DNA of 42,190 bases from Gemmatimonadaceae bacterium (lineage in GTDB: Bacteria; Gemmatimonadota; Gemmatimonadetes; Gemmatimonadales; Gemmatimonadaceae). The stretch lies in assembly GCA_022843265.1 (NCBI GenBank), contig JALHNZ010000004.1, forward strand, positions 102,761-144,950, read 5' to 3'. The notes under the pieces were generated by a model. The model was not told where the DNA came from. It worked only from the letters and a program-made list of their open reading frames with translations, and searched no databases. The position numbers were made by a program, and so were the translations under genes. Shown here one piece after another: positions 7,280 to 33,412 of this stretch; position 1 is the first letter of the stretch, and every line of letters begins with the position of its first letter.

Positions 7280-9064
7280 TTACTGATGGCGACGCGCCTC
7301 GTCGCGCGTCGCACGCATTACGTGCAGCAGTTCCTGCAACTGCGCTTCGAGTTCGCGCACACGTTCTTCGAGCACCAGCACGCGCTGCGAATACACAGTG
7401 GTGCGCACTTCCAGCGCCTGCACACCGGCCAGCGTGACACCAGCCATGTCGCCGCTGTTGATCATGGTAGAGTCACCGCTGAGTCCAAACGCGTGCTCCC
7501 AATCTTGCGCCATCGGTCCAATATGACGCACTGACGCATCCTGTGTTTTGTACGACCACGAGGAGACGGGAACACTGCGTAGTTTCGCAAGCACGGCTTC
7601 ACCATCTACATCACGAAAGCCCGTTTTTTTGTTGCGATCCGACAGATTATTCCACGCGCCACCATGCGGTGACAGCGTGACACCGGCACCCATGTACGGC
7701 TCGGTGTAGAAGATGTATCCACCCGTTGCACGCACCACGAACTGATTTTCCGCGGTTGCGTGCACCGGCGGCGCGCTGTCGTCAATGTCAAAAAAGCCGG
7801 CGCCAATAATCACCGAGCCTTTCATTGCCGTGCGCGCATTGTTGCCAAGTGCCAGTGACTGCTCACCGGCGGCCAGGTTGTTGGTGCCGATGGACACCGA
7901 ACGAGTCCCGGATGCCTGACTATTACCGATTGCCGTGGCGTTGCCACCGGAGGCGTGTGCCTGTTGTCCCAACGCGAGGGCGACATGCCCGGAGGCCATC
8001 GCATCGTTGCCCACGGCCAACGCGCCGTATCCACTCGCGCGTCCGCCAAGTGCCATGGATGCCTGTCCGGACGCAACCGCTTCAATGCCGATGGCGAATG
8101 ACTCCGTGCCTTGGGCAAACGATCGGTAACCCGTAGCGAACGAGTTCGTGCCCGACGCGATGTTGTTCAACCCCAATGCCGCGGAGTGATAGCCGATTTC
8201 TGAATCGTTCCACCAGTTCGCGCCCATGCCCTCGACCGTGCCCGCTCGGAAGGCCGCCTTTCGCGGATTCCACATAAGCCGCGTACCGGCTCCCGATGGC
8301 ACCGTCGCCCCAACATTCTTGGTCCCGGTCACGATGAAACCGTCATCCGACGCGCGTGTGCCGGCAAGCAAATACTGCGGGTGCGAATCAACGGTGAGAT
8401 TGCTCAGCGCGCTGTGGTCGCTCGATCCAGGGCCGGCCGCTCCTGCAGCACCAGGCAAGCCTTGGGGTCCCTGCGGACCCTGCGGACCGATCGGGCCCGC
8501 AATGCCGACACCAGCTGGCCCAGGTGCTCCTGTGGCCCCCGTGGCCCCTTCCGGTCCGGCCGGCCCCTCGGGACCAGACTCGCCCTTCAGCCCCTGTGGA
8601 CCGATCGGGCCCGCAACACCGGTCGCACCGTTCGCACCGGACAATCCGATGTCACCCTTGGGCCCCACTGCACCCGCTGGGCCGACGTCGCCCTTGGGAC
8701 CCATTGGCCCCATCGCGCCGGTGTCGCCCTTCGCGCCGGCCACGCCCTGCAGGCCCTGCGGACCCGTCATGTTGAGCGAAAGCAGCGTATGCGTCGATGA
8801 CACACACTGTGCGGGCAGTCCGGCGCCGCCCACACGATATGCCGTGCCCGAGCCGGGCACGATGCACAGCGACAACGGCTGTTCTGCCGCGTGCACTGAC
8901 GAGGCGGCGACAGATTGAGCCTTGGCGGTGGCGGAATCACCGCCCGATTGTGCCGCGAGCACGAACGGCGCGAGCGCGACAAGTGCAAATGCAACGGGCA
9001 CCCGCGCAACCGGCGCATACGAAACACGCGCAGCAGGTGCGTCGAACTGTGCAGACAACATCAT
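7280..9064 (-). CDS. Collagen-like fibre protein with YadA-type head repeats and C-terminal endosialidase-type chaperone (S74)
   Basis: 594 residues in a modular, trimer-forming order. A signal peptide ends near residue 39. An uninterrupted collagen-like Gly-X-Y stretch covers about 101-213. A linker follows, then left-handed beta-roll repeats of the YadA/trimeric adhesin head type (about 290-415, motif such as [12 protein letters not shown]). Next is an intramolecular chaperone domain of the endosialidase type (about 474-550, [10 protein letters not shown] with the Ser475-Asp476 dyad) and a coiled coil (about 555-590). In this family the chaperone trimerises, helps the fibre fold and cuts itself off. 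Such chaperones are best known from phage tail fibres; here the protein has a bacterial export signal and no membrane anchor. A surface or extracellular fibre is the likely role. Confidence 0.88.
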
Positions 9065-10365: not shown

Positions 10366-12933
10366 CTATCCGTTCATCGCGTCCTTTGCACGCGCTTCCC
10401 ACTTCGCCGCTTCACTCGGCTTGCCCCAGGCGGTGTACAGCTCGCGCAGTCGGCGCCACACATCCTGCACCGGCTCGACACTGTGCGGCAAATCAGTGGA
10501 GAGCTGACGTTCCGCCGGAATCAACAACGCTTCTGCGTCGGCGTACCGTCCTGCGGCCGTGAGCACTTCGGCCAGCGAGCTGTTGGTTGACGCAAGCAAC
10601 CAGTGCCCCTTGGGCAAACTCGCCGCCCGTAATCGATAGGCTTCACGCACCCAGCGCTCACCCACATCCGCAGAGTCGAGTCGCGCCAGCGCCATGCCGA
10701 GATGCATCATGCTGGCGGGGAGCGCCACGTTGGTATCGTCGAGTGTGCGACCACGGAGTGCGACAACGCGTCGCGTCCACTGCGTGGATTCCGCATAACG
10801 ACCCCGGCGACGCAAATGATCACCTAGGTTGAGCATGGTCATGGCCAGGTTCGGATGCTCCGGCCCCAGCACACGTTCGCGGATGCCGATGACTTCGCGA
10901 AATGCCGCCTCCGCCGAATCCATTTCACCAAGACGCTCGAGCACTCCCGCACGAACGGTGAGAATCATGGCGAGCGCCGCCTCGTCGTTGGGGTCAACGC
11001 GCCGTTGCAGCGCAAGCGCTGAGGCGAGCAGCGTATCACCCGCCAGATTATTGCCAAGATCGCTCGCCACCACCGCGGCCGACACGAACGTCGGCACCGC
11101 GGCAACGGCGTCATCCGGAAAATGCGCGCGATGCAGGTCGAGTGATTCGTACAACAGTGGCAACGCGTCGGCATTGTTGCCCAGTCTGTTGAGCGTCTGC
11201 GCACGCGTATCAAGCAGCGTGGAACGAGCGAGCGGGGGCACTTCGCGCAATAAACGCTGCAGCGAATCTGCAATACGAAGTACCGAGTCAGCAGACTCGT
11301 AGTTGCCCTCTTCCCAGCGGGCAATGCCAACGTCTACCATAGCCGTGGCGAAGCCCAACGTCGAGCGACCATCCGCGCGTTCGCGCGCATACAGACTGCG
11401 CACATACTGCGTATCAGCCGCGGTGTATTCACCCAATGCCAGATACGTGTCGCCAATGATGTTGCGCAGCTCTGCTTCGAGCGCTGGCGAAAGACGTGCA
11501 TCGTTTAATCGATACGCCGCTGAATCCAGCACGTCGCGCACGCGCGCGTCAGCGCCGAGTACACCGGGTTTCGCGGCACCAAGCATTTCGGTGAGGAATG
11601 CCTGCACTTCAGTCGCCCGTGCCGCTTCACTGCTGGCGCGAGATGCCTGACGCATTGCCGCCGCTGTACCAGCCACGAGCGAAAGCACCGCCACCGACGC
11701 GGCAAACAGTTCCACCCGGCGGCGTCGCACAAACTTGCCCATGCGGTAGCCCGCGCTGTCCGGACGCGCGGTGACCGGACGCCCGGCGAGGTGGCGTGTG
11801 ATGTCGTCCATCAGCTCGTTCACCGACGCGTAGCGACGATCGGGTTCCTTGCGCAGCGCCATGCCAACGATGGCGTCAAGATCACCTGCGAGGGTGCGTC
11901 TGGCGCGCTCCAGCGACCGTTCGCCAAGCAACGCGCTGTGCGCCTCCGCCAGCTCAGTGCTTGGCCGCGGTGTTGGCGTTTCGGTGACCACGCGCTCCAT
12001 GGCGCTGGCTGAAAGTCCCGCCAGCGAAAACGGTCGGCGTCCGGTTAACAGTTCGTACAACAACACACCAAGCGCGTACACATCGGCGGTGGTGCTCACC
12101 GGCTCGCCGCGCATCTGTTCGGGTGCCGCGTATTCTGGTGTGAAGGCACGTGCGCCGAGCGCGGTGTGCTGCGAGTCATCGCCGTTGTCGTCGAGCAACT
12201 TGGCGATACCAAAGTCAACCAGCTTCACCGCGCCGTCTTCGCGCACCAGTATGTTGCTGGGCTTGAGATCGCGATGCACAATCAGTCGGCGATGCGCTGC
12301 GCGCACTGCATCACACACGTCGAGAAAGAGACGCAGACGAGCCTCGACGTCGAGCGTGCGCGCATCACACCACGTGGTGATCGGCGAACCGTCAATGTAC
12401 TCCATCACGAAGTACGGCTGACCATCCGGTGTGACGCCGCCGTCGAGCAGCGCTGCGATGCGCGGATGCTGCAATGACGCCAGAATCTGTCGCTCACTGC
12501 GAAAACGGCGCGCGGCGTCATCACTGTCGGTAATGCGGCGCAGAAACTTTACGGCCACCCGTTGCTGATACTGATCGTCGGCGCGCACCGCTTCGTGCAC
12601 GGTGCCCATGCCACCGGCACCAATGCGACGCCCGATGGCCCACGCACCCAGATGCAGTCCCTCACGTTCCGTGTCTCGGAGCGACAAGGCGTCAGCGTCG
12701 TCGCGAGGCGTGATGGCTTCCAGTGCCAACGCGCCAAGTGACCGGTCGCTATCGTGGGCTGCGAGCAGAGCGCGCAGCTCGCGCGACATCTCCGGGTCGC
12801 GATGTGCCGCGTCAGACAAAATGGCCTCACGCCGCTGCGGTGACGCATGCACGGCAGAATCAAACAGTTGTTCGAGTTCCGCGAAGCGCGCCGCGGAAAA
12901 CGAAGCGCCTGATGGTGATTTGTCGGTGCTCAT
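10366..12933 (-). CDS. Ser/Thr protein kinase with membrane helix and TPR sensor region
   Basis: 855 residues. A helical N-terminal leader (1-90) is followed by a complete kinase domain (about 97-385): glycine loop GAGGMG, Lys129 in VAVKFL, catalytic HRDLKPSN (Asp222) and DFG at 240-242. One transmembrane helix lies at about 408-427. The outer part is a long run of TPR-like helices (about 440-850). This arrangement, with an ECF sigma factor gene just upstream and overlapping by ATGA, recurs in Gemmatimonadota, Acidobacteriota and Planctomycetota. The kinase probably controls the sigma factor or its targets; what the TPR part senses is unknown. Confidence 0.93.
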   Translation of the reverse strand: MSTDKSPSGASFSAARFAELEQLFDSAVHASPQRREAILSDAAHRDPEMSRELRALLAAHDSDRSLGALALEAITPRDDADALSLRDTEREGLHLGAWAIGRRIGAGGMGTVHEAVRADDQYQQRVAVKFLRRITDSDDAARRFRSERQILASLQHPRIAALLDGGVTPDGQPYFVMEYIDGSPITTWCDARTLDVEARLRLFLDVCDAVRAAHRRLIVHRDLKPSNILVREDGAVKLVDFGIAKLLDDNGDDSQHTALGARAFTPEYAAPEQMRGEPVSTTADVYALGVLLYELLTGRRPFSLAGLSASAMERVVTETPTPRPSTELAEAHSALLGERSLERARRTLAGDLDAIVGMALRKEPDRRYASVNELMDDITRHLAGRPVTARPDSAGYRMGKFVRRRRVELFAASVAVLSLVAGTAAAMRQASRASSEAARATEVQAFLTEMLGAAKPGVLGADARVRDVLDSAAYRLNDARLSPALEAELRNIIGDTYLALGEYTAADTQYVRSLYARERADGRSTLGFATAMVDVGIARWEEGNYESADSVLRIADSLQRLLREVPPLARSTLLDTRAQTLNRLGNNADALPLLYESLDLHRAHFPDDAVAAVPTFVSAAVVASDLGNNLAGDTLLASALALQRRVDPNDEAALAMILTVRAGVLERLGEMDSAEAAFREVIGIRERVLGPEHPNLAMTMLNLGDHLRRRGRYAESTQWTRRVVALRGRTLDDTNVALPASMMHLGMALARLDSADVGERWVREAYRLRAASLPKGHWLLASTNSSLAEVLTAAGRYADAEALLIPAERQLSTDLPHSVEPVQDVWRRLRELYTAWGKPSEAAKWEARAKDAMNG

Positions 12934-13520
12934 ACGCCGGCCGGTGCGATCGACGACGAATCGCCATCGAGCGCGCGCAGCAAAAAGGCACGCGCAAACG
13001 TCCAGTCGCGTTTTACAGTTGCGGGTGACGAGATCATCGCTTCTGCGGTTTCTTCAATGGACAATCCGCCAAAAAAACGCAGTTCCACTACGCGCGCCTG
13101 TCGCGGTGCTAGGCGCTCCAGAGCTAACAGGGCATCATCAAGCGCAAGCAGATCAATCGACGAGCCTTCTGCCGCAACCAGCGCTTCGTCGAGCGTTACG
13201 CGCACGCCGTAATCGCGTTTGACCCGTTGCCGCTTGCGCGCGTGATCAACCAGCAGGCGGCGAATTGTTTGCGAGGCAATCGCAAAAAAATGCGCGCGGT
13301 TTTGCCATGTCATGCGGTTGACAGCAACAAGATGCATGAATGCTTCGTCCACCAGCTCGGTGGGCTGCAGCGTGTGTCCATCTGCTTCGCGGCGCATCGC
13401 GAGCTCGGCGATGCGATGCAACTCGTCGAGCACGAGCTGCGCCACCAGGTCAGCTGCACCGGGGGTCCCGCGCTGCAGCTCCGCAAGCGCCGAAGTGATG
13501 TCTCCTGAGGGGCCGTTCAT
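12930..13520 (-). CDS. ECF-type RNA polymerase sigma factor
   Basis: 196 residues from ATG 13520 (a GTG at 13544 would add 8). Region 2 is at about 40-105, with LQPTELVDEAFMHLV and the -10 recognition helix FFAIASQTIRRLLVDHARKR. Region 4 is at about 130-190, with LAPRQARVVELRFFGGLSIEETAEAM and a recognition helix after Ser-Pro-Ala-Thr-Val-Lys-Arg-Asp-Trp. The LQPTELV motif is typical of the subgroup first noted in Rhodopirellula (TIGR02999), which is often paired with protein kinases, as here. No anti-sigma factor gene is present. Its last codon overlaps the kinase start (ATGA). Confidence 0.92.
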   Translation of the reverse strand: MNGPSGDITSALAELQRGTPGAADLVAQLVLDELHRIAELAMRREADGHTLQPTELVDEAFMHLVAVNRMTWQNRAHFFAIASQTIRRLLVDHARKRQRVKRDYGVRVTLDEALVAAEGSSIDLLALDDALLALERLAPRQARVVELRFFGGLSIEETAEAMISSPATVKRDWTFARAFLLRALDGDSSSIAPAGV

Positions 13521-13585
13521 GGTCGCAACGCTAGCCTCGGACACGCACCGCTCGCAAGCAGTGCGTGCCGAGCTCTAGCGTGCCG

Positions 13586-16500
13586 TCACTCCCGCCGAAT
13601 TGTCGCTCCAATACGAGGCGCAGCGGGCGGCTGCCCGCCAAACTCGAACGCCCCGATGTCACAGGCGGCGATGCGCGTGAATCCTCGCTGATCGGCGACC
13701 GGGCAGCTGGCCGTAACGCCAGCGTTGATCGCAGCACTGCCCTCGAGCAGCGCGTGTGTGAACGTGCGCCCCCCATTGTCTGCCAGCGCGATGTTGATGC
13801 CGGGCGCCGTGTTGACTTTGTCCGAAGACACCGTGAATCGAGTGCAGGTCGCGTCTCCTGAGAGATTGCCGCCGCCCGACGTAATCAGACTTGTGCCGCC
13901 GCTGCCGCAGTTGCCCGGGTTCGTGCCCACGAGATTGCCGGCCAGAAGAATGTTCGTCACGGTCATGGCACCAGCGTTATTCGTGCCGATGCCACCACCG
14001 TAGTCAATCGCTTTGTTCGCGACAAAGGTCGCGTTCACCACCGTAGAGGGACCGGTCGCGGCAATACCGCCTCCCGTCAATGCCTCGTTGGCCGAGAACG
14101 TACTGTTGCGAACCGTGCTGTTGCCGGTGGAGGCCGCGAACAGTGCACCACCGATAGCCGCCGATGTATTGCGGGCGAACGTACTCTCTTCAATGAGCGC
14201 GACGACGCCGGCCGTGACGCCGCCGCCGCTCGCCGTTACCGCCTTGTTGCCGGAGACCGTGACACGACGCAGTGTTGCCGCCGCTCCAGGGCCACTGAGC
14301 TGAAGACCGCCGCCCTGTGTACCCGCCTCGTTGTCGAGCACCTGCGTTCCAGTCATGGTAAGCACGGACTGGCCCGCCTTCCACAACCCGCCACCCACAG
14401 TATTGGAGCGATTGCGTCTGATCAGACCGCCTTCGAAGGTCACGGTCATTGCGCCACTGAAGCCGTACGCGCCGCCGGAGTTCGAGACGTTATCGTCAGC
14501 CACGACGCTCCGCAGTGTGTAGGTGCCGCTCGTCAAGGCAAGGATCGCACCGCCTCCCTGCGTGGCACGATTCTGGGCAAAGGTGGTGCTGTCCGCCATC
14601 AGCGTCACGTTCTCCATGTACGCGCCGCCGCCGCCACCGGTTGAGGCAATGTTCTCAGCGATACGTCCGCCGCTCAGGCGCACGTTCACGCCATTGAGAA
14701 ACAATCCGCCGCCACCGAGTGCCTGATTGCGTTCAATGGCCACGTTGGTGAGCATCAGCGACTGGGCGCCGCTCTGGAAAATCGCGCCACCGAACGCTGT
14801 GGAGCGATTGCCTGAAATCGAGCCACCAGTCATGGAAAGTTCTGCGGTATTGCCGCCCCAGATACCTGCGCCTGAACCGGCAGTGCCGTTGGCGCGATTG
14901 TCAACAATATTCACGTTGGTGAGCGTGGTCTTGGCCGTCTGTTGAAAGTAGAGACCACCGCCACCGTTGGCGTTCGCAATGTTCTCGCGAATGCTTCCAC
15001 CCTGTTGCGTGTATTCGGCCGTTCCGAACAAGAGCAAGCCACCACCACGTAACGACGCGACGTTTGCAACTACGTTGGAGTTCACGACGGTCAGACGCGC
15101 GTTCCCAAGTTCAATGCCGGCGGCCGCGGGCGCACTGTTCGCGCGAATCGTGCTGCCACTCATTGTGGCCACGACGCCACCGCGAACATTGAGTCCACCG
15201 CCGGAAATCGCCGCGCTGTTGCCTTCGATTGTCGCGTTGACGAGTGAGAGCGTGCCATTGGGCCCATCGGCGAACACGGCGCCTCCAAGACCGAGCTGTG
15301 CGCTCGGTGCACGGTTGTTGCTGACGATCGTGCTATCCAGCACGAGCGAGCTATTGAAAACGCGAGCGCCGCCGCCCACGGATCCGTTGGCCACGTTGTC
15401 AGCAATGCGTCCGCCGAGCATTGTGACGAGCGTTCCCTCTTCGGCCGACACGCCGGCACCAACGCCACTCGCACCTGTCGTACGATTGTTCGTGATGTCG
15501 ACGTTCACGAACGTACCACGACCCTCGCGAATCACGAGCACTCCACCACCGGGCGCGTTATCAGACTGGTTGTCAGTGACGTGGACATCGCGCAGGGTGA
15601 CATTGGCTTTGTTATCGATGATCACGCCGCCGCCGCCCGCGCGTCGTCCGCCGCGCAGCGTAACGCCGCGCACTGATGCGGCAAAGTCGCCGTTCAGGTA
15701 CAGCACGCCGCGCGGTGCGGTCTCAGTTGCGGCGGCGTTGATCGTGAGTGCGGCGGCGGCACCCGGTCCCACGATGTCCGTCGCGGTACTGATAAAGGGC
15801 AGTGTTTGCGTGAGCGTGATCGTTGCGGGAGTCGTACCACCAACAATTAGAATGGAGTCGCGATCCGGTGCCACGTTGGCGGCCGTAATGGCTTCGCGCA
15901 GTGTGCAATGCTGCACGGTGCATTCGCCGTCATCGGTATCGTCAAGCACGGCCACGCGCCACGCATTGCGCACGCGCAGTGGACGTTCACCCTGTTTGCC
16001 CGGATCGCGCACGCTCGTGGCGCGTACCGTGCATGTACCCGGGGCGTTCGGTGCAAGGTATTGTACGGTCGCACCGGTACCGGTAATCGTGCCACAACTC
16101 GCCGTCCAGGTGACAGCGCCATTACTCGTGCCAGTGACTACTGCCGTGAGCGTTGTCTGCTCGCCGCGTAACAGCGCACTCAGCGCTGCGTTCACCGCAA
16201 CAACAACCGGCGTCACGGTCACAGTCGACGACGCACTGCGCGCCGGATCAAGCACACTTGTGGCCGTCACCGTGTAACTGCCACCCGCAACCGGTGCCGC
16301 CCACCGAACGCTGCTGCCCGTGCCAACAATTGTGCCGGCGCTCGCAGTCCACGTGACCGCGTCGTTCGAAGCGTTGGTCACCGCCGCGGTGAGCGGCAGC
16401 GTGTCACCCGCGCCCACGGTGCTGGTGGCTGGTGTCACCGCAATGCCAACTGGTGTGACCGTCACCGTCGCCGATGCATTGCGCGTCGCATCGGCCACGC

Positions 16501-16849
16501 TGGTCGCCGTAATCGTGTAACTGCCGCCCACGCCTGGCGCGGTCCACGTGGCGCTCGTGCCGTTGGGCGCGACGGTTCCGCCGCTCGAGGTCCATGTCAC
16601 GCCGGTGTTCGTGGCATTCGCCACTGACGCGGTGAACTGCGCGGTCGCGCCAGCATTCACGGTGGTGGTTGTCGGCGTGACGGTCACGCTCACCGGAGGC
16701 GGCGGCGGGGGCTCAGTGCCGGAGTCACCTCCGCAGGCAACGGCGCTCGACAGTGTGATCAACGACAGCACTGCGATAGAAAATGTCCGATGGCGGGAGC
16801 AGGATGAACGCTGACCGGACCCGTCAGCACGCGATCTGAGGCGGAACAT
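13586..16849 (-). CDS. Large surface lipoprotein: Ig-like repeats plus right-handed beta-helix (CSLREA / choice-of-anchor Q type)
   Basis: 1087 residues. The signal peptide has lipobox Ser-Ala-Val-Ala-Cys (Cys39), followed by a run of seven prolines. Three similar Ig-like (Big_2 type) modules lie at about 53-133, 134-214 and 215-292, each with VTWTxSxGTI. Then comes the CSLREA motif region (CTLREAITAAN, about 314-325) and some 700 residues of parallel beta-helix repeats rich in Gly, Asn and Ser (pattern like GGGLxLxG ... NxA). The C-terminal VADQRGFTRIAACDIGAFEF matches the choice-of-anchor Q ending. A ribosome binding site AGGAG lies 8 bases before the ATG. Such proteins are displayed at the cell surface, possibly as adhesins or glycan-binding proteins; no enzyme motif was seen. 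Confidence 0.88.
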   Translation of the reverse strand: MFRLRSRADGSGQRSSCSRHRTFSIAVLSLITLSSAVACGGDSGTEPPPPPPVSVTVTPTTTTVNAGATAQFTASVANATNTGVTWTSSGGTVAPNGTSATWTAPGVGGSYTITATSVADATRNASATVTVTPVGIAVTPATSTVGAGDTLPLTAAVTNASNDAVTWTASAGTIVGTGSSVRWAAPVAGGSYTVTATSVLDPARSASSTVTVTPVVVAVNAALSALLRGEQTTLTAVVTGTSNGAVTWTASCGTITGTGATVQYLAPNAPGTCTVRATSVRDPGKQGERPLRVRNAWRVAVLDDTDDGECTVQHCTLREAITAANVAPDRDSILIVGGTTPATITLTQTLPFISTATDIVGPGAAAALTINAAATETAPRGVLYLNGDFAASVRGVTLRGGRRAGGGGVIIDNKANVTLRDVHVTDNQSDNAPGGGVLVIREGRGTFVNVDITNNRTTGASGVGAGVSAEEGTLVTMLGGRIADNVANGSVGGGARVFNSSLVLDSTIVSNNRAPSAQLGLGGAVFADGPNGTLSLVNATIEGNSAAISGGGLNVRGGVVATMSGSTIRANSAPAAAGIELGNARLTVVNSNVVANVASLRGGGLLLFGTAEYTQQGGSIRENIANANGGGGLYFQQTAKTTLTNVNIVDNRANGTAGSGAGIWGGNTAELSMTGGSISGNRSTAFGGAIFQSGAQSLMLTNVAIERNQALGGGGLFLNGVNVRLSGGRIAENIASTGGGGGAYMENVTLMADSTTFAQNRATQGGGAILALTSGTYTLRSVVADDNVSNSGGAYGFSGAMTVTFEGGLIRRNRSNTVGGGLWKAGQSVLTMTGTQVLDNEAGTQGGGLQLSGPGAAATLRRVTVSGNKAVTASGGGVTAGVVALIEESTFARNTSAAIGGALFAASTGNSTVRNSTFSANEALTGGGIAATGPSTVVNATFVANKAIDYGGGIGTNNAGAMTVTNILLAGNLVGTNPGNCGSGGTSLITSGGGNLSGDATCTRFTVSSDKVNTAPGINIALADNGGRTFTHALLEGSAAINAGVTASCPVADQRGFTRIAACDIGAFEFGGQPPAAPRIGATIRRE

Positions 16850-17175
16850 GGCAGAGACTCCTGGGGAGATTCAACAACACCCGCAGCGCGCGAGTGCTCG
16901 TCTCTTCTACGCGTCGTCTCGCATGGAACCGGCTCACTGCGTGAGTGCCTCGGTCGCCATCGTCATGATCGGCAACAGTCATGGCGCATGTTGCCGCGCG
17001 TGTTCACGTCTCAGACGTGCAACGATGGTGATCGATGTCACACGGCGACATCTGATCGCTGTTGCGCCCGCCGTACCTCGGGCTTCAGCTTGAAAGAGCG
17101 CGGCTGCAACGCCGCTGCCCCACCAACGCGCGCTACTGCCGCGTTTGCGCTTCCCCACAGACAGGACGCACTTCC
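16850..17175. other. 326-bp divergent intergenic region
   Basis: It separates the beta-helix lipoprotein (-) from the DUF3597 gene (+). It contains the lipoprotein ribosome binding site and a small inverted repeat CACGTC/GACGTG near 17006-17020. The open frame that begins at 17062 reads into the DUF3597 gene but has no coding character before 17176. I see no clear promoter. Confidence 0.5.
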
Positions 17176-17571
17176 ATGGGACTGTTCAGCAAGATTCTCG
17201 GTAAGCTTGGCATCGGTGACGGCGACAAAGCCGCCGCCCCGGCTGCCGCCGCAGCACCGGCCGCGGCCCCCGCGCCAGGACGCACCACACCCGACCCGTC
17301 GGTCGCCATTCCAGTGGTAAATGTTGAAGAGAAGCTCGAAGCGATGGCCAAGGCCAATCCACAGGAGCTCAACTGGCGTACGTCGATCGTTGATCTGCTC
17401 AAGCTGCTCGATCTCGACAGCAGCTTTGCCGCGCGCAAGGAGTTGGCCGTGGAGCTCGATTGCCCCGATGAACTGATGAAAGATTCCGCGAGCATGAACA
17501 TCTGGTTGCACAAGCAGGTGCTGACCAAGATCGCGGCGAATGGTGGATACATCCCGCACGATCTGTACTGA
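17176..17571 (+). CDS. DUF3597 family protein
   Basis: 131 residues from ATG 17176, with AGGA 9 bases upstream. It begins MGLFSKILGKLG, has an Ala/Pro linker (about 19-35) and then the DUF3597 domain (about 49-131). The domain is recognisable by LNWRTSIVDLLKLLDLDSS, a Ser-Ala-Ser-Met-Asn-Ile-Trp-Leu-His block and the C-terminal NGGYIPHDLY. The family resembles a small peptidoglycan-binding-like helical domain and is widespread, but its function is not known. No signal peptide, so cytoplasmic. It is convergent with the CHAT/transglutaminase-like gene. Confidence 0.87.
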   Translation: MGLFSKILGKLGIGDGDKAAAPAAAAAPAAAPAPGRTTPDPSVAIPVVNVEEKLEAMAKANPQELNWRTSIVDLLKLLDLDSSFAARKELAVELDCPDELMKDSASMNIWLHKQVLTKIAANGGYIPHDLY

Positions 17572-17574
17572 TTG

Positions 17575-20064
17575 TCATGAGCCACCGGTGACGATCGGCA
17601 ACGGCGTCACCGGCGGCGATGATCGGCGCGCCACACGATTATCCAGCAGCGAATCAAACGTGTCTCGTTCCGCAAGTCGCGCCACACCTTCTTCGTGCGC
17701 CTGTGAGAACGAGTAGCCAAAGCAGAGCCCCGTTGCCTCCAGCAGGCGCAGCGCGTCGGCCCGCACGTAACCTTGCACCTCGTCGTATCCCTGCGGCCCC
17801 ACGCGCCACCCGTACGCGTCGACCAGCGGAATGCGTCCCGAGTGATAGGCCGCCTCACCAAGGGATTGCGCGCGTCCCTGAGGCGGCCGAGCCACGGTCA
17901 TGAACTCTTCCTGATAGGCGTCGGCGCGCCAGTAGCCCACAAAGCAGTGGCCGGTGGTAAGCACAAGGCACGCGTGAATGTCCACGTACTCGAGACACGC
18001 CGCGAGCAACAGCGACAGATCAATGCACGTGCCGCTCGAAGTGTGCAGCAGCTCACTCGGCGAACGCAACCGCTGCCCACCGCGTGAGTACGCGGGCGGT
18101 GGATTGATGTACAGCAGCTTGCGATCGTGCACGAGCGCGGTCCAGATGGCCTGCACCTGCAGATCTGTACGACGTGCGTTGGGCGCACCACCAATCGGAT
18201 CTTCCACCCGCTGATATCCATCAAACCCGGCCAGCGGATCGTCGGTCAGTGCAACAAGATATTTGCGCGCTTCGCCAATGATGTGCGCGATGGCCGGATC
18301 GCGCGGCAACACAAATGACGGCAACCACGGATTGTTCTGCGTGTCGTCATACCATTCGTCAACTGGCAGTAGCGCCACACGATGCGTCTCCTCGTGTGCG
18401 ACACGCCCCTCCCACGTGACGCGTGTGTATACGGTGGTCAGTGTGCGCTCATGCAACGAGCGCAGCATGGGGGCCGTGAGTGGCAACGTGATGTGATCGG
18501 CCAGCGCAACGTGCGGTTCGGTCAAACTGAGCGTGCGACGATATTGCTGCACCACGCCACCGGCTTCCAGCTCAACCTCTACGCGCACATCATCAAGCTC
18601 GTGATCAACCAGCTTGCTCAGTGTGAACGTCCTGATCGCGCTGCGCCGATTGTGCAGCAGCGAATAGTTGATGTCACCCGGTACGTCGACATCGACCGCC
18701 AGCACCTCTGACATGCGCCTGGCTCGTGTCGCAGTCAGCTCAATGCCGCGCCTGTCCGCCTGGAGCAGCGCAGCGTTCTCCTGTGAGCGAACCGACAGCA
18801 CGTCGCTGACTTCAGCAGCCGGCTCGCAGGTGCACATCCAAAGCACAATGCCCGTGCCGTGCAGATCATGCCCCTGCTCATCCAACTGTGCCCACGCGCG
18901 GCCGAACGCATTGGCGATGCCGGTCAGCGACGTTTCGTGCTGACACTCGCGGTAGAACACGGTAAAGAAGTACTCGGCTACTTCATCAGGGATCGTATCA
19001 AGAAAACCAATGCTCGACAGCGCCCCGCGCCGCAGCATGTCCGGCGCCGTCTGTGCGCCGGAGTAGTGCAGATTCAGCGTGACAAGCGCCGGCGCAGGAT
19101 TGCCGTCAGCAATCAGCGCCTCGGCCAGCGCCGCAGCACTCACCACCTGTTCACGCGTGATGTCGCTGCTGTCTCCGTCACTTTCCGCCCGCGCATCGCG
19201 TGCCATCATAATGCCGCCAGCGCGCACCTGCTCGGGGTCCTGATACAGTTCGGGCACGAGTGACGCAGCTTGAATGGGATCGACGCCGCTCACGTGCACA
19301 AAACGCGCCTGATGCGCGGGCAGACTCTTCATGTATGCTGCCAGCGCAGAACGGGTGGACCTGGCGGCCATGCGATGCGGTGCGTCGGTCGGTGGAAACA
19401 CCAAAGCGCTCGGGTCCTGCACACTCACCGCGTGGCAGAGACGTAGCACTTCAGAGTCGAAACCGTAGAGCTCGGCAATGCGCCCTGGTGCCGATGTAAT
19501 GATCGTGAGCGTACCCGCACCGATGTCATCCGCACGTGGTGGTTTTCCGTCGGCGAGACAGCGCGTGATCAGCACACCCTGGGTGCGGCCGAGGCAGCGC
19601 GTGGCGGCGCTTAACACGTACTCCCACGGAAAGCTGAATGCGGCGTCGATGACTTCCGTGCTGAAGCTTGAATATTCCGCTGTGTCGGCGAGCACCACTT
19701 GCAGGCGCTCCGAACCCACCAGTTGTTGTATGGTTGTGGCGTCAAACCCCAACTGATCGAGCGCTTCGACCGCGTCTTCGGCGATCACTGACCGCAAGTC
19801 GTCGTCATGCGACCAGCGACTGCGCATGCGCAGTGTGTAGCTCCACTCGGTGCTCAGTCGCACGATTTCGAGCGCCGTTTGCGCGTTGCTGTCAAACGAC
19901 AGATCGCCAGCGCGCAGTTGTACCAGTGGTGTTGGCTTCGGGCCTGCAACGGCTGACGATCGTTTCGCTGCAGGCTTTTTTGACGAACGTTTTCCCGCGG
20001 ACCGGTTTTTGGCAGTCCGGTTTGCCGCAGACCGTTGTTTCGCTGCCTTTTTTGCTGGGCTCAT
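17575..20064 (-). CDS. CHAT-like plus transglutaminase-like protein with histone-like N-terminal tail
   Basis: 829 residues. Residues 1-40 are a Lys/Ala/Ser/Arg-rich tail like that of histone H1. Residues about 120-400 follow the order of a CHAT (caspase-like) domain: FPWEY at 145-149, a strand with His257 (RFVHVSG), then LVTLNLHYSG at 327-336 and GFLDTIPDEVAEYFFTVFY. The usual catalytic Cys of LNACESG is replaced by His333, so this part may be inactive. Residues about 440-570 look like a beta-sandwich. Residues about 580-740 are a transglutaminase-like domain with GTCIDLSLLLAA (Cys680), TGHCFVGYW (His706) and a later LVDAYGW. I recall the same C-terminal module in large DUF4011/DUF3320 helicase-type conflict proteins. 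It is last in an operon with two alpha/beta hydrolases. The CHAT assignment is from pattern only. Confidence 0.6.
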   Translation of the reverse strand: MSPAKKAAKQRSAANRTAKNRSAGKRSSKKPAAKRSSAVAGPKPTPLVQLRAGDLSFDSNAQTALEIVRLSTEWSYTLRMRSRWSHDDDLRSVIAEDAVEALDQLGFDATTIQQLVGSERLQVVLADTAEYSSFSTEVIDAAFSFPWEYVLSAATRCLGRTQGVLITRCLADGKPPRADDIGAGTLTIITSAPGRIAELYGFDSEVLRLCHAVSVQDPSALVFPPTDAPHRMAARSTRSALAAYMKSLPAHQARFVHVSGVDPIQAASLVPELYQDPEQVRAGGIMMARDARAESDGDSSDITREQVVSAAALAEALIADGNPAPALVTLNLHYSGAQTAPDMLRRGALSSIGFLDTIPDEVAEYFFTVFYRECQHETSLTGIANAFGRAWAQLDEQGHDLHGTGIVLWMCTCEPAAEVSDVLSVRSQENAALLQADRRGIELTATRARRMSEVLAVDVDVPGDINYSLLHNRRSAIRTFTLSKLVDHELDDVRVEVELEAGGVVQQYRRTLSLTEPHVALADHITLPLTAPMLRSLHERTLTTVYTRVTWEGRVAHEETHRVALLPVDEWYDDTQNNPWLPSFVLPRDPAIAHIIGEARKYLVALTDDPLAGFDGYQRVEDPIGGAPNARRTDLQVQAIWTALVHDRKLLYINPPPAYSRGGQRLRSPSELLHTSSGTCIDLSLLLAACLEYVDIHACLVLTTGHCFVGYWRADAYQEEFMTVARPPQGRAQSLGEAAYHSGRIPLVDAYGWRVGPQGYDEVQGYVRADALRLLEATGLCFGYSFSQAHEEGVARLAERDTFDSLLDNRVARRSSPPVTPLPIVTGGS

Positions 20065-20117
20065 TGCACGCTCGTCGAGGGCCGATCAGATGGTTCGTGA
20101 GCAATCAGGTACGCCGG

Positions 20118-21824
20118 CTAGGTAATCAGATTTCCTCGAGCAATGCGCGCGTTGTACCGTCGTTGGGCGAGAATCACACGACGCGATTGTCGTCGATCAT
20201 CGATACCGTATCGCGGAGTCGCGGGCACGATGTCAGCGCCTCCGTCAATCAGCCACGCACGCAGCTGGGCCACAATTTCGGCGTCGCGAAAACAGGTGGT
20301 GTGCATCGTGCGTCCGTTCTGCGGCAATGCGAGCGTACGATCCCACCACAACGTGGCACCGCCAATGGTTTCCATCGAGCTGGTATTCACCACGAGATCA
20401 TTCGCCTGTTGCATCTGCGCGTCCATCACGAGATCCCAGATTTTCAGTGTAAGCGCAGACGGCATGGCTTCACTCGCGTCGTCGGCGCCCGGCCCGTTTG
20501 GTTCGTAGTCGTTGCTGACCACATGATACGTGTTCAAGCGGGCTGCAGCCGGTGGTATCGCGTTCAATTCTTTCACCACTTTCTGATGCGGGTCCATGGC
20601 AGCAAGACCCGGCACCGCCTCGCTATCAAGCAGCGCAGTGGCAAGGAATCGCACCAAGGCTGCCACACCGCGCGCCACCGTTTCTACCCATACGGCCGCC
20701 ACTGCTGCCGGCGGCAGCGCCATCGTCACACCGCGACATGCGGCCACCGCCAGATTTGTCATCACGGTGACAAACGTGCTCCACCGTTCGCGTTGCGCGA
20801 GCAGTGTGCCGCTGAGTGTTGCGGCCACGAACACGACGCGCTTGAACGCGTCGTTCCACCGCGTGTTCAGTACGAGTTGTTCGAGCAGTGTGCGTGTGAC
20901 CAATCCGCCCCGGCTGAAGGCAATCACATCAATGTCAGGCCGCACGCTGCCCGGAGGAAACGCGCGATCGAACGCTTTCAGCATTGCGATGGCATTCTGC
21001 GCCGGCGTTTCACTGAGTGTGCGATGATCCCAGCCGAGTATGTGGTCGTACTGTTCGTGCATCGCGTGAAGCAGCGCGATGCCGGGTACGCTAAAGCCGA
21101 GCGCACCGAACGACCCGACGGTTGAACTGAACGTACCGTGCACAAGCAACAGTACGCGCGGCGATTCGCCGGGCCGCGCGGGGACGCGCGGCAGGGTGTG
21201 GCGATCACTGAGCGCGGTCCATGCCGACGGCACCGTGGAGCCAACGCGCACAAAGCCGGTGTGTACGCCCCGTTCCAGGTGTTTGATCAGCAGTCCGGTG
21301 ATTTTACGACGGATGAACTTGAACAGAAATCCACTCACCGCACGCAGCACGCTGGTCACGCGGCGGCGACGTGTGGATTCCGTGGCGCGGGTTGAGGGCG
21401 CCGCGGTGATTCTGAAATGCGCCGTGCGCGCATCGCTCACGCGTGTTCCGTCGGCAAACACCCAATCGAGTTCGCCCGACTCGTCAACGGTGAGTACCAC
21501 GGCGTCTTCGTCAGCTTCGAGGACCACATCAACCATGGTCGGTTGCACGGCGCCGGGCAGCGTTGACGAACGCCGCGATTGCATGCCGGGTCGGCGCGCG
21601 CGCGGCGCCACGGTAAAGTTGGTGACGAGCTCGAACCCCTGTTGCTCCAGTTCACGCAGCAGTGGCGCGAGGTCGTCTTCTGGTGGCGTTGCCTGCAACG
21701 CGCTACGCGCTCGTTGTCTACGCGCATTTCCGCGCTGCCTGGTGAGCAGGTGCGTACCAGGTACCACCGCCACCGCCGCGGCGTGGTGCACGGTCACTCC
21801 GTTGCCCATCGAATGACTCGGCAT
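20118..21824 (-). CDS. Lipase-like alpha/beta hydrolase (DUF7379-like)
   Basis: 568 residues. The N-terminal part (1-220) is strand-rich with an acidic segment and a basic stretch at about 150-175. The hydrolase core begins at VLLLVHGTFSSTVGSFGAL (His229-Gly230 oxyanion loop). The nucleophile is Ser304 in DVIAFSRGG, the conserved region NDLVVNTSSM follows at about 475-484, and the likely catalytic His508 is in MHTTCF. I believe this matches the DUF7379 type of hydrolase, which is often found next to or fused with CHAT or caspase-like domains. Here the CHAT-like gene follows 53 bases downstream on the same strand. No signal peptide was seen; it is probably cytoplasmic. The substrate (lipid ester or peptide) is not known. 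Confidence 0.7.
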   Translation of the reverse strand: MPSHSMGNGVTVHHAAAVAVVPGTHLLTRQRGNARRQRARSALQATPPEDDLAPLLRELEQQGFELVTNFTVAPRARRPGMQSRRSSTLPGAVQPTMVDVVLEADEDAVVLTVDESGELDWVFADGTRVSDARTAHFRITAAPSTRATESTRRRRVTSVLRAVSGFLFKFIRRKITGLLIKHLERGVHTGFVRVGSTVPSAWTALSDRHTLPRVPARPGESPRVLLLVHGTFSSTVGSFGALGFSVPGIALLHAMHEQYDHILGWDHRTLSETPAQNAIAMLKAFDRAFPPGSVRPDIDVIAFSRGGLVTRTLLEQLVLNTRWNDAFKRVVFVAATLSGTLLAQRERWSTFVTVMTNLAVAACRGVTMALPPAAVAAVWVETVARGVAALVRFLATALLDSEAVPGLAAMDPHQKVVKELNAIPPAAARLNTYHVVSNDYEPNGPGADDASEAMPSALTLKIWDLVMDAQMQQANDLVVNTSSMETIGGATLWWDRTLALPQNGRTMHTTCFRDAEIVAQLRAWLIDGGADIVPATPRYGIDDRRQSRRVILAQRRYNARIARGNLIT

Positions 21825-21952
21825 ATTCCTGCCAAATGCATCAGGAGGGAGGCGCCACGCGATGTTCGCGTGCCGTGAGAGCCAGACTCGACACTACGAT
21901 GAAGCGCGCAGGCGCACTCTGCAAGCGAGCGCCGCTGTTCCGCGAGCTCGGC

Positions 21953-23695
21953 TTACCGCCGAAGTAGCTGCTCGAGTCGCGCCAGGTCATCGTATGACCA
22001 GCCCTCTGGCTCCGTGATCGCGTGCCACGCCTCGATGTAGTGCCCGGGTGCAAAGTTGTGACCGTAGCCAGGCGGCGCCGCCTCAACGCCAGCGGCGATA
22101 TCCGCGATGAGCTGCAGACCGGTAACCACGGGATACCATCGGAACTGCGACACCACGTCTGGCCCACGCGGTGCACGCATCCACTCTGGTTCGCGATAGA
22201 ACGAGCGCACATTGAAGTACGTGACCGGATCGCTCGCGTATTGCAGGTACGCAATACGCAGCGGCGCCCACGTTGCGCCCACGTTGCGCAGCCCGCCGTT
22301 CTGATTCATGAAGCGCACGACCGAACTGTTGCGATACCTTGGCAACCACGCGGGCGACGTGGGTTGACGGGTGGCCATGATTTCGTTCATGGCCGAGCTG
22401 CGAAAGGGCATGCCGGCCCAGAGTGCGCCGTGAAATGGATCGGACAAGATGTCGTGCAAGTCGAACGAACGATCCGCATTGAGTGCGCCCAGACTCACGC
22501 CAAACACATACAGTCGCGGTCGTGCGTCACGCGGGAGTGTTGTCCAGTAGTTGTAGACTTCTTCAAAGAGCGCCGCAGCGGTTTCGGCGCCGTACGCGCC
22601 TTGCGTTGCCAAAGAAAGTGCGCTTGGCAAATACGAATACTGCGCCGACACGATGGCGACATCGCCAAGATGTAGATATTCCACAGAATTCGTGGCCCCC
22701 GGGTCGAGCCAACCGGTGCCAGTGGGTGTGGCCACGATCAGCACGGCGCGACTGAACGCATCAATGCGACGCAGTTCACGGAGCGCGAGCTGGGCGCGCT
22801 CTTGCGGTGTGGGTGCAGCGTTCAGTCCGACATACACGCGGATGGGTTGCAGCGCGGGTACGCCGGTGAAAGTGGTGATATCACTCGCCGACGGTCCCGT
22901 CGTCACAAAGAGTCGTCCCTGTCGGCCGAGATCCTGCCAATCCACAAACGACTCGGCGCTGCCTGAGCGTGTAGAGTCCGTGGGTTGTGCGCGATCATCG
23001 GGAATCAGCGCATCGATTTCTCGGAAGGATGCGTCGGCGGCGCGCAGGCCAAACTTGAACACAATGCCATCGCTGAGCACCCACACTGCGATGCCCACAC
23101 TTGCCAAGCCGAGCAAGTTGCCAACGCGCGGCGGCAGGACGCGTCGAAATCGTTCAGCGATCACATGAAATGCGGCCGCGACCAGTCGCGCGAACAACAG
23201 ACACACGGCAAACACGAGCAGCGCAACCACCGCCACGCGGAATGGACGCACGCCGTCGACCAGTTCCATGCCCATCAGTTCGCGCACCGCATTCTGCCAC
23301 GTGGTGGCACGCCACAGGCACGCGATGGAGATGGCCACCGCGGTAGCGAGCAACACTCTCGACAACAGTTGCAAGCGTCGCGCGGTGCGTCCGCGTCGCG
23401 TGTGAAAGCCGAGATATGAGCCGACGCCCACGATGCCCGCGCCGATGGCGTAGCCAAGCGCGAGGGAAAGGCCGGAGACCACGCCCTGGAATGCGGGGGA
23501 ACGCGGCAGCAGGCTCGGCGTGAGCGATGCGGCGAACATCAGCGTGCCGAGGATGCTGCCGGTTTGAGAGAGGCGGGCGCGGTTCAGTCGATCGTACAGT
23601 CGATGAGTGGCACGACGCACACGCGAGTGTGGCGAGCTCAGCTGTGGATTAGCAGGTAAGGTGCGCGTCTCAGTCACTGATGCAGGTGCAGGCAT
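21953..23695 (-). CDS. Membrane-bound alpha/beta hydrolase (Abhydrolase_9 / DUF2319 family)
   Basis: 580 residues from ATG 23695. The frame is open to 24067, with other possible ATG starts at 23758 and 23788; the upstream part runs opposite the next gene and is not convincing. The N-terminal half has about five membrane helices, beginning TPSLLPRSPAFQG, the family's marker. The C-terminal half is the hydrolase: Ala-Thr-Pro-Thr-Gly-Thr-Gly-Trp, then the nucleophile Ser401 in FGVSLGAL, and a late His in HAITEPEGW. Members are inner-membrane esterase-like proteins of unknown substrate. It is probably the first gene of the three-gene operon ending with the CHAT-like protein (gaps of 128 and 53 bases). 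Confidence 0.85.
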   Translation of the reverse strand: MPAPASVTETRTLPANPQLSSPHSRVRRATHRLYDRLNRARLSQTGSILGTLMFAASLTPSLLPRSPAFQGVVSGLSLALGYAIGAGIVGVGSYLGFHTRRGRTARRLQLLSRVLLATAVAISIACLWRATTWQNAVRELMGMELVDGVRPFRVAVVALLVFAVCLLFARLVAAAFHVIAERFRRVLPPRVGNLLGLASVGIAVWVLSDGIVFKFGLRAADASFREIDALIPDDRAQPTDSTRSGSAESFVDWQDLGRQGRLFVTTGPSASDITTFTGVPALQPIRVYVGLNAAPTPQERAQLALRELRRIDAFSRAVLIVATPTGTGWLDPGATNSVEYLHLGDVAIVSAQYSYLPSALSLATQGAYGAETAAALFEEVYNYWTTLPRDARPRLYVFGVSLGALNADRSFDLHDILSDPFHGALWAGMPFRSSAMNEIMATRQPTSPAWLPRYRNSSVVRFMNQNGGLRNVGATWAPLRIAYLQYASDPVTYFNVRSFYREPEWMRAPRGPDVVSQFRWYPVVTGLQLIADIAAGVEAAPPGYGHNFAPGHYIEAWHAITEPEGWSYDDLARLEQLLRR

Positions 23696-30286: not shown

Positions 30287-33200
30287 TCACTCTCCCACCA
30301 TCAACAACACCGCCTCCGGTGTCATCATTTTCGCATGTGCATCAATACCATCGAGCGTTCCGCGCGGAATCGACGCCTTCAGCGCCTCAATGCGACCCAG
30401 CAATCCCGGATCCATCGGGTGATCAATCACGATGCCCGCACGCGCGGAAAACGCTTCTGCCGCCGCGGCAATCTGTAGCGCGCGCTCCGCGTTACCGGCT
30501 GCAGCCTCAACGGCCGCCAGCCCCATCAACGCCTGACCGGTGCCTGGCGCACTGCCTACCTCTTCGTAACTACGCACAGCGCGCTGAAATGCCGCTCGCG
30601 CTTCAACTAGATCAGCGGCAGCCAGCGCAGTCCATCCCATTTCACCGTGCACGCGCGCGATCTCGAGTTTGTCGCCGATTGTTTCAAGCGCAAGCAGCGC
30701 CTCGCGGTATAGTGCCATCGCGCGTGATTGATCGCCCTTGGCAAGCGTCATTTGGGCTAAAAAACTGAGCGCCAGGCCGCCCATCTCGTTGTCGTCGATT
30801 CGACGCTGAATGACCCGCGCTTCTTCTATAAGCGCCATGCCAGCATCCACATCACCAGTCGCGAAGAGCAACATGCCTTTGATGGTCATGGCACCTGCTT
30901 GCACAAACTCGCATCTGGCTGCGCTACTGCGCGCGATGCAGTCGTCGAGTGCCTTGCGCGAGTCTTCGATCTGACCTCCATGCAGCAGGCAGTAGCCCCG
31001 ATACAGCACGGCTTCCGCACCGATGGCCGCATCACCAATGGCATCGCCTGTCACGAGTGCGCTGGCGGCGGAGGCCAGAGATCGGTCCCATTCATTCGTG
31101 ACCGTGCCAATCATGGTGCGGGTCAACAAAGCGAGTCCACGTCCTCGCGTCGCCGCACTGGATTGGGTGATGCCGAGCAGCGTATCGACCATTTCTCGCG
31201 CCGTCAGATGCTGACCGCCAACATGCCAGCACCAATTCAAGTGGCCAACAAGCGTCAACCCGTGCTCAAGCGACTCGGCATCTTCCGCGCGTGCACACGC
31301 GGTGAGCCACTGAATCGCCGCGTTCAAGTTCGCGTTGTCGGCACGCGCACGCTGCAAGGCGGCAAGCTGACCGACATCACGAAACCCCCGGTCAATTCCA
31401 GCGGCAAGCGTCTGAAAGTACTGCGCATGCGCGTGCCGGAGTGCTTCGACCTCGCCACTCGCGTGTAGCTGTTCGGCCGAAAACGCGCGAATCGTTTCCA
31501 GCAGAGAGTAACGCCCCGCGGTATCAACCACACGAACGAGTCCCTTCTCAACCAGCGAATCAAGTTCGTCGAGCGCGCGATACCGGTCATCGCTCTCGTA
31601 ACACACCTGCTCCATCGCCTCCAGCGTCCAGCCGTCATGAAACACCGAGGCTCGGCGTAGCAAACGCTGTTCCGACGCATCAAGCAGCGAGTAGCTCCAG
31701 CTGATTGTTGCCCGCAGCGTGCGTTGACGCAGCGGCAAATCGCGATCGCCCGATGTCAGCAAATCAAGTGCGTGATCGAGTCGCTGCAACAGCGCTGCTG
31801 GCTCCAGGATTCGTACGCGTGCCGCGGCGAGTTCCAGTGCGAGCGGCAGCCCGTCCAGCTGTCGGCAAATCGCCGCAATTGCATTCGCGTTCTCGGGAGT
31901 GAGCGCAAAGCCCACCTTCACTTTTTCAGCACGCTGCAAGAAAAGCGCAACAGAAGCGCAGGTGCGCATTGCTTCAACGGAAGCATCAGCCGCCGGCAAC
32001 TCGAGCGGTGGTAGAACAAACTCGGATTCCGCTGCAATCTTGAGTGGCGCACGACTCGTGGCCACTACCTGCAGCGCAGGACACCGCGCCACCAGTTCGG
32101 CAATGTCACCGGCTGCATCGAGCACCTGCTCCAGATTGTCGAGTACAAGCAGTGTGCGACGCGATCCGATCACCGCACATAGCGCATCAAGCGCGGAACG
32201 ACCATGCGCTTCGGTGACATTCAGCGTGGTGCCAATCACCGGCAACACATCGGCCGCACTTGTCACCGCCGCGAGCGACACAAACGCCGCACCCTCCGGG
32301 TACTCCGCCTCCAGTCTGCGAAACAACTCTATCGAGAAGCGTGTCTTGCCGGTGCCGCCATATCCTGAAATGGTAAGCACGCGCGCGCCACTACGAATGC
32401 GTTCAAGCGCCACGCTCACGTGCGCTTCTCGCCCGAGCAACGGCGTGGCCGGATTGGGAGGCGCTTTGTACATCGCCGGCGCGAGAGCTTTCACACCTGC
32501 GGTATCGCTCCCCGATCTCAATGCGCCCTTGAGCGCGTCACGCCACGCTTGAATAGACGGATACCGATCTGCCGGCGACTTGGCGAGCGCACGCTCCACC
32601 ACTTCGGCGACTGACGCTGTGACGTCAACACGTGCCGTCTGCAGGGACGGCACGGGCTCAATGGCGTGTTTGACCATCACGGCCATTGGGGATGCACCAG
32701 AGAATGGCGGCGAGCCGGCCATCAGTTCGTAGGCCACACAACCGAGTGCGTACAAGTCACTGCGCGCGTCAACAACATCACCGCTTCCCTGTTCAGGGCT
32801 CATGTACTGCGGCGTACCGAGCGCGAGACCAACCGTCGTGAGTTTCTCGTTGCCAACACTCACCGCGTGCGCAATACCAAAGTCGGCCACAATCGCGTGA
32901 TCGTTCTCAAGCATGATGTTTTCTGGCTTGATATCACGATGCACCACACCGCGTCCGTGCGCGTAGCTCAGCGCGTCGGCCACTTCATCAAGAATGCGCG
33001 CAGCTTCGTCGCTTCGCATCGCGCCGCCGCGATTCAAACGATCACGCAGCGATTCGCCGTCGATGAACGGCATCACGTAGTACAACAGTCCCGCGGCTTC
33101 ACCAGAATCAAAGAGCGGCAGAATATTCGGATGCCGCAACTGCGCTGTCGTGGTGATTTCGCGCAAGAAGCGCTCAGGACCGAGCGCGTTTGCCAGCTCC

Positions 33201-33346: not shown

Positions 33347-33412
33347 AGGTGCGCGAAGTTGTCGCCCACGGAGCACTCGCGCAATGCTCAACCCCGCGTC
33401 GTGTCAGGAACC

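Follow-up and report, generated by a model that had tools for sequence, protein, structure and literature searches.

A conserved gene pair encoding a pseudo-CHAT–transglutaminase-like protein and a DUF7379 α/β-hydrolase, possibly forming a regulated-hydrolase module

The question raised by this locus is whether three neighbouring genes, encoding a CHAT-like and transglutaminase-like protein and two α/β-hydrolases, form a bacterial conflict cassette, as was proposed from the sequence alone. The genes are located in a window of 42,190 nucleotides (the whole stretch of DNA that was analysed) from a Gemmatimonadaceae draft genome (G000; 4.6 Mb, 211 contigs). The ORF listing of the window confirms the three genes, all on the minus strand, at 17575-20064, at 20118-21824 and from 21953 to about 23695, the last ORF being open to 24067. 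The first encodes a protein of 829 residues, referred to here as CHAT-TG, which consists of a basic tail, a pseudo-CHAT domain, a β-sandwich and a transglutaminase-like domain. The second encodes a DUF7379 α/β-hydrolase of 568 residues, and the third encodes an Abhydrolase_9 protein (Pfam E=5.7e-111). No convincing match was obtained for the three window proteins with PADLOC, and the promoter scan gave a result at chance level.

The Pfam matches of the window CHAT-TG protein to CHAT (PF12770, E=0.0077) and to Transglut_core (E=0.09) are both below gathering, and these weak assignments were checked with an alignment of 35 rows, using a profile, an AlphaFold model (mean pLDDT 80.7) and structure comparisons with VIA-align. 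The N-terminal tail (residues 1-42; 19939..20064, minus strand) is rich in Lys, Ala and Arg, with 31% K/R in the first 45 residues, and is predicted to be disordered (pLDDT <50 for residues 1-40), in agreement with its earlier description as histone-like; comparable tails occur in some homologues only (L014, L020 and L031). The tail is followed by the pseudo-CHAT domain (residues 43-416; 18817..19938, minus strand), of which residues 180-416 superimpose on SAVED-CHAT (8tl0), the closest solved structure, with a VIA-align Z of 17.4 and an rmsd of 2.9 over 183 residues; the same structure is matched by the CHAT-TG profile by sequence (E=5.8e-7). When residues 43-413 are compared with Craspase TPR-CHAT/Csx29 (Z 13-14), gingipains and separases, the VIA-align Z values are 12-14 overall. 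The domain has the CHAT/caspase fold, but the catalytic His-Cys dyad (GHG ... NAC) is gone, so that the label CHAT-like given by the sequence-only reading holds for the fold and needs qualifying for the catalysis. In a profile alignment with CHATs having intact motifs (E=1.7e-14), the histidine is opposite V261 and the cysteine is opposite H333, the lost dyad being flanked by conserved VH.xG and N.xx.S/A columns, from which the placement to one residue follows. As seen in the column survey of the alignment, the catalytic histidine is absent from all CHAT rows and the cysteine is kept only in L042, its position being occupied elsewhere by H, Y, W, F, E, D and other residues. In a divergent CHAT-TG of another Gemmatimonad (L085:8394-10676, minus strand), the NAC cysteine is kept and the histidine is lost.

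The β-sandwich (residues 453-566; 18367..18708, minus strand) has Z values of about 8-9 to the β-sandwich domains of GH2 enzymes and to protein 4.2. The transglutaminase-like domain (residues 574-820; 17605..18345, minus strand) has the papain/transglutaminase fold, as shown when superimposing residues 574-819 on PNGase (VIA-align Z 8.9 over 165-167 residues), and its triad residues C680, H706 and E776 are invariant in every row covering them; this domain had been correctly recognized at the outset. The homologue at L014 also passes the DUF553 cut-off. At six Bradyrhizobium loci, two overlapping genes encode the CHAT and TG parts individually, the division coinciding with the domain boundary. 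Since the CHAT dyad is lost and the Cys-His-Glu triad is invariant, the CHAT part is predicted to be a pseudo-caspase, that is, a pseudoenzyme and not an active CHAT peptidase, and the transglutaminase-like domain is likely to be the enzyme of CHAT-TG; peptidase, cross-linking or deamidating activity would all be compatible with its sequence. The CHAT domain has been kept across several phyla after its predicted loss of catalysis, alongside another thiol-peptidase domain of CHAT-TG whose triad is intact.

The neighbouring hydrolase is a DUF7379 family member (183.8 bits, compared with a cut-off of 33; E=4.2e-54) with an intact triad, S304-D476-H508, whose columns are invariant in 26 homologues, and with the oxyanion motif HGTFS at residues 229-233. 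Its fold is that of the α/β-hydrolases, and its closest solved relatives by sequence are lipases. The structure model (mean pLDDT 61.8) is confident in the core only, and for this reason the fold matches are left out of the claims on the substrate. The catalytic domain is preceded by an N-terminal extension (residues 1-224; 21153..21824, minus strand), having oligo-Arg runs. An R/K run of 3-6 residues is present before the catalytic domain in 30 of the 34 CHAT-TG-linked hydrolases, and after it there is one run in total; the oligo-Arg runs of the N-terminal extensions are conserved, at about residues 35-50 and 70-95, for example in L006:12328-13740. Four partner hydrolases are without oligo-Arg runs, and some of their starts may be misplaced. 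Our guess is that these runs are a putative cleavage or docking site; they could also be binding rather than cleavage sites.

The direct search with the 829-residue protein adds two genomes of the same genus that have CHAT-TG, at 35-41% identity. A single-protein search of public genome contigs gave no match, and the search with an alignment of three sequences gave 37 loci, from Bradyrhizobium, several Burkholderiales, Planctomycetota, Acidobacteriota, Myxococcota, a Verrucomicrobium and others. CHAT-TG is sparse, being present in six phyla with counts of 5/395 in Gemmatimonadota, 2/331 in Myxococcota, 3/347 in Acidobacteriota and, as full-length copies, 4 among 343 Planctomycetota; among 72,556 plasmid and 50,697 phage records, full-length CHAT-TG is absent and only the TG part is matched. 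In the CHAT-TG tree, the Gemmatimonad copy L086 is the sister of the Phycisphaeraceae copy L009 (support 100/99), and this cross-phylum pair suggests transfer. The window CHAT-TG has no resolved placement in this tree; it has in common with the Bradyrhizobium proteins an insertion before the PWE motif.

A DUF7379 hydrolase gene adjoins CHAT-TG in 35 of the 39 assessable distinct loci, in five phyla. Such a frequency argues against chance and bears out the association of CHAT with this hydrolase that had been proposed for the window. The 35 loci comprise a set of 29, the window, L028, L107, L109, L110 and L111; L022, L034, L086 and L108 are left out of the 39, as their sequence ends before the neighbour is readable, and the loci without a DUF7379 neighbour are L005, L014, L042 and the divergent L085. 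Translational overlap of the two genes is seen in 20 of 29 pairs, 17 of these overlaps being of exactly 4 nt. Co-evolution of the two proteins is seen in their distance matrices, whose Mantel correlation is 0.95 (p=0.0002, with the window excluded). In the clustering of the neighbours of 38 loci, only CHAT-TG and DUF7379 are conserved across clades. The conserved unit is a two-gene system, composed of CHAT-TG and the DUF7379 hydrolase. Directly after this pair at L031, there is a gene (13507-14769, plus strand) for a T6SS Tle1-like phospholipase-type hydrolase.

The partner is exchanged at some loci. In place of DUF7379, L005 has a caspase with GHG and DAC motifs together with a small PGAP1-like α/β-hydrolase, L014 has a metallopeptidase-like HEAGH protein and L042 has a CHAT-nSTAND1 protein. 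In the window, the gene order is reversed, the hydrolase gene being upstream of CHAT-TG, whereas it is downstream at the other loci. The hydrolase tree pairs the window hydrolase with that of L079 (genome G032, having DUF7379 without CHAT-TG; 51% identity, support 100/100); the 25 other partner hydrolases form a clade that excludes it, the window hydrolase being of a different DUF7379 lineage. The reversed order and the different lineage are together consistent with another family member having taken the place of the original partner.

The DUF7379 family is present in 20 of 118 Gemmatimonadaceae genomes. Five of the stronger matches (L075, L076, L080, L081 and L084) are fused to caspase-type domains, as read from the sequence (for L076, from the C-terminal part only). 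At L074, L078, L082 and L083, DUF7379 is beside CHAT proteins with GHG/NAC motifs and at L072 and L073 it is near astacin-like metallopeptidases; at L079 there is no evident partner, and at L077 the partner is not clear-cut. As DUF7379 is found with caspases, intact CHATs and astacin-like peptidases where CHAT-TG is missing, the pairing of a peptidase with DUF7379 appears to be a general rule. The caspase–DUF7379 fusions and CHAT/DUF7379 pairs are like the cassette in that the same hydrolase family adjoins, or is fused to, a caspase-clan peptidase, but their caspase or CHAT domains look active and there is no transglutaminase domain. For DUF7379, a family of unknown function, this provides a role that can be tested: its members would be lipase-like partners for many of the caspase-clan proteins of bacteria. 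The caspase-like N-termini of these fusions are seen in L080:345-3389, L081:6007-9039, L075:4643-8113 and L084:6078-9617, and a second caspase or CHAT gene is sometimes beside the fusions.

The transglutaminase module is also found in large helicase-type defence proteins, as the sequence-only reading had anticipated. In Planctomycetota, the search matched some 50 additional sites, where the match is confined to the β-sandwich and TG region and the ORFs are mostly 1,800-2,400 residues long; the two matches tested are DUF4011/AAA_11/AAA_12/MTES_1575/DUF3320 proteins, which PADLOC assigns to PDC-S37 and Hhe and which have the module at the N terminus. The TG profile matches helicases of the PDC-S37/Hhe type with E values of 1e-37 to 1e-40, and the plasmid TG matches are mostly DUF3320/DUF4011 proteins. 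Within the order to which the window belongs, the DUF4011 helicases have no TG module, and the link is therefore based on the Planctomycetota and plasmid examples. Giant DUF4011/SF1 helicase proteins have been described previously, and protein cleavage was suggested as a further line of defence (PMC3710099). The N-terminal β-sandwich and transglutaminase-like module is what these DUF4011/SF1 helicase/MTES_1575 REase/DUF3320 proteins have in common with CHAT-TG; unlike them, CHAT-TG is devoid of helicase, nuclease and wHTH parts and has a pseudo-CHAT domain N-terminal of the module. With Pfam and PADLOC, SF1 helicase, DUF4011, REase and DUF3320 domains were not found in the window protein. The TG module of the giant helicase-nucleases is now linked to a nuclease-free setting, and its function is testable in a small two-gene system.

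In VMAP systems, caspase domains always occur with an adjoining α/β-hydrolase gene, the effector position is commonly taken by inactive caspases and transglutaminase-like peptidases are rare (PMC7159879, 2020). In these features the VMAP systems resemble the cassette; the cassette differs from the VMAP/MoxR-vWA ternary system in having two genes, with the pseudo-CHAT domain fused to the TG domain, and the neighbour clustering of the 38 loci finds no MoxR, vWA or VMAP gene conserved beside CHAT-TG. The CHAT fold is also shared with SAVED-CHAT and with Craspase TPR-CHAT/Csx29, but in these the CHAT protease is active and is combined with SAVED or TPR parts for sensing, whereas CHAT-TG is without the Cys-His dyad; no CRISPR genes were noticed beside the CHAT-TG loci. 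In the openly accessible literature searched, there is no paper on the CHAT–transglutaminase combination or on DUF7379. Of the novelty claimed for the locus, the pseudo-CHAT–transglutaminase hub stands with respect to that literature, but the pairing of a caspase with an α/β-hydrolase is already published (PMC7159879). The caspase/α/β-hydrolase conflict theme gains in CHAT-TG a recognisable constant protein.

It is possible, and it is our tentative preference, that the two genes encode a regulated-hydrolase module, in which CHAT-TG controls the lipase-like enzyme and a trigger leads to arrest or killing of the cell. CHAT-TG would be the constant control protein, its pseudo-CHAT domain, with catalysis lost, being the probable sensor or assembly platform and its Cys-His-Glu domain the active peptidase (or acyl-transfer) part. 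The Arg-rich N-terminal extension of the lipase/esterase-type serine hydrolase, its binding to CHAT-TG or both would probably keep this enzyme restrained. On phage infection or another internal insult, the triggered TG domain may cleave or modify the hydrolase, and the released hydrolase would attack lipids or another ester substrate, leading to arrest or death of the cell, possibly as a form of abortive infection; the role of the cassette is perhaps a self-killing or antiviral response. The regulated-hydrolase module is supported by the pairing at 35/39 loci, the 4-nt overlaps, the correlation of 0.95, the invariance of both triads with loss of the CHAT dyad, the split Bradyrhizobium genes, the substitute hydrolytic neighbours at L005, L014 and L042, the association of DUF7379 with other peptidases in Gemmatimonadaceae lacking CHAT-TG, the lipase resemblance and the TG module common with PDC-S37/Hhe, for which protein cleavage is proposed (PMC3710099). 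Against it are the housekeeping neighbourhoods, some conserved synteny, the lack of full-length copies in the plasmid and phage records, the alternative explanations of the oligo-Arg runs, the four hydrolases without such runs, the several activities compatible with the sequence of the TG domain and the sub-gathering CHAT and TG Pfam scores in the window.

The neighbourhoods were inspected by eye for 27 loci, and 112 neighbours were scanned with PADLOC. Clear defence-type neighbours are present at two loci only: at L111, a Septu pair follows immediately downstream, and L022 has an adjoining MBL protein of the LmuA/Avs1a type. The other PADLOC matches among the 112 neighbours are generic (HerA, Fic, QatA-like), most neighbours look metabolic and most loci are among housekeeping genes, with conserved synteny at some loci, such as the argC neighbourhood in Roseateles/Pelomonas. 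Residence in defence islands, considered in the initial proposal, appears not to be general among the loci inspected, and the inference of a defence role draws on the parts, the patchiness and the partner exchange instead of on islands. A stress-response or envelope-lipid regulator without anti-phage function, in which CHAT-TG processes the hydrolase on an internal signal and lipids are remodelled or acyl groups are removed, would suit the chromosomal location, the mostly housekeeping neighbourhoods and the synteny that is stable within Roseateles/Pelomonas; we consider it rather unlikely, given the very patchy distribution (for example in Gemmatimonadota and Myxococcota), the L086/L009 cross-phylum sister pair, the partner exchange and the modules common with conflict systems. 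The more specific proposal of a horizontally spread two-component death or immune module, with a pseudo-CHAT sensor acting through a transglutaminase-type protease on a lipase effector with an oligo-Arg pro-region, is in our judgement unlikely; if it is true, the module would be the bacterial equivalent of signalling under pseudocaspase control, with hydrolytic effectors that can replace one another.

The roles of the two proteins may also be reversed, such that the TG domain cleaves, deamidates or cross-links cell proteins and thereby kills, and DUF7379 supplies, removes or senses an acyl or lipid signal. The TG module is indeed the constant part and its neighbour the variable one, and next to the four TG-bearing DUF4011 helicases that were examined, the gene calling gave no DUF7379. 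However, a constant sensor with a variable neighbour usually marks a variable effector, and the recurrence of the Gemmatimonadaceae DUF7379 with several unrelated peptidases is as expected of a shared protease-activated effector, which makes the reversed roles quite improbable. The reading of all three genes as one cassette agrees with their strand and order in the window, but is highly improbable, as no Abhydrolase_9 gene is within reach of any other CHAT-TG gene, the family is present in two relatives without CHAT-TG and a gap of about 130 bp precedes the hydrolase gene. The three genes as a conserved unit are refuted; a shared transcript in this one strain is possible. Abhydrolase_9 is rejected as a third component and is regarded as a bystander.

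Several other genes were noticed in the window. A DUF3597 protein (17062-17571, plus strand; Pfam E=4.2e-41) is encoded convergently with CHAT-TG. At 30287-33391 (minus strand), a Ser/Thr kinase is fused to an NB-ARC/AAA domain and TPRs, forming a STAND-like signalling protein. In the region 10366-16849 (minus strand), the gene for an ECF sigma factor (12930-13544) precedes one for a kinase-TPR protein, and adjoining these genes is one for a 1087-residue β-helix protein with weak Chlamydia PMP-like repeats. At 7280-9064 (minus strand), YadA-head repeats, collagen repeats and a Peptidase_S74 chaperone domain are combined in one protein.
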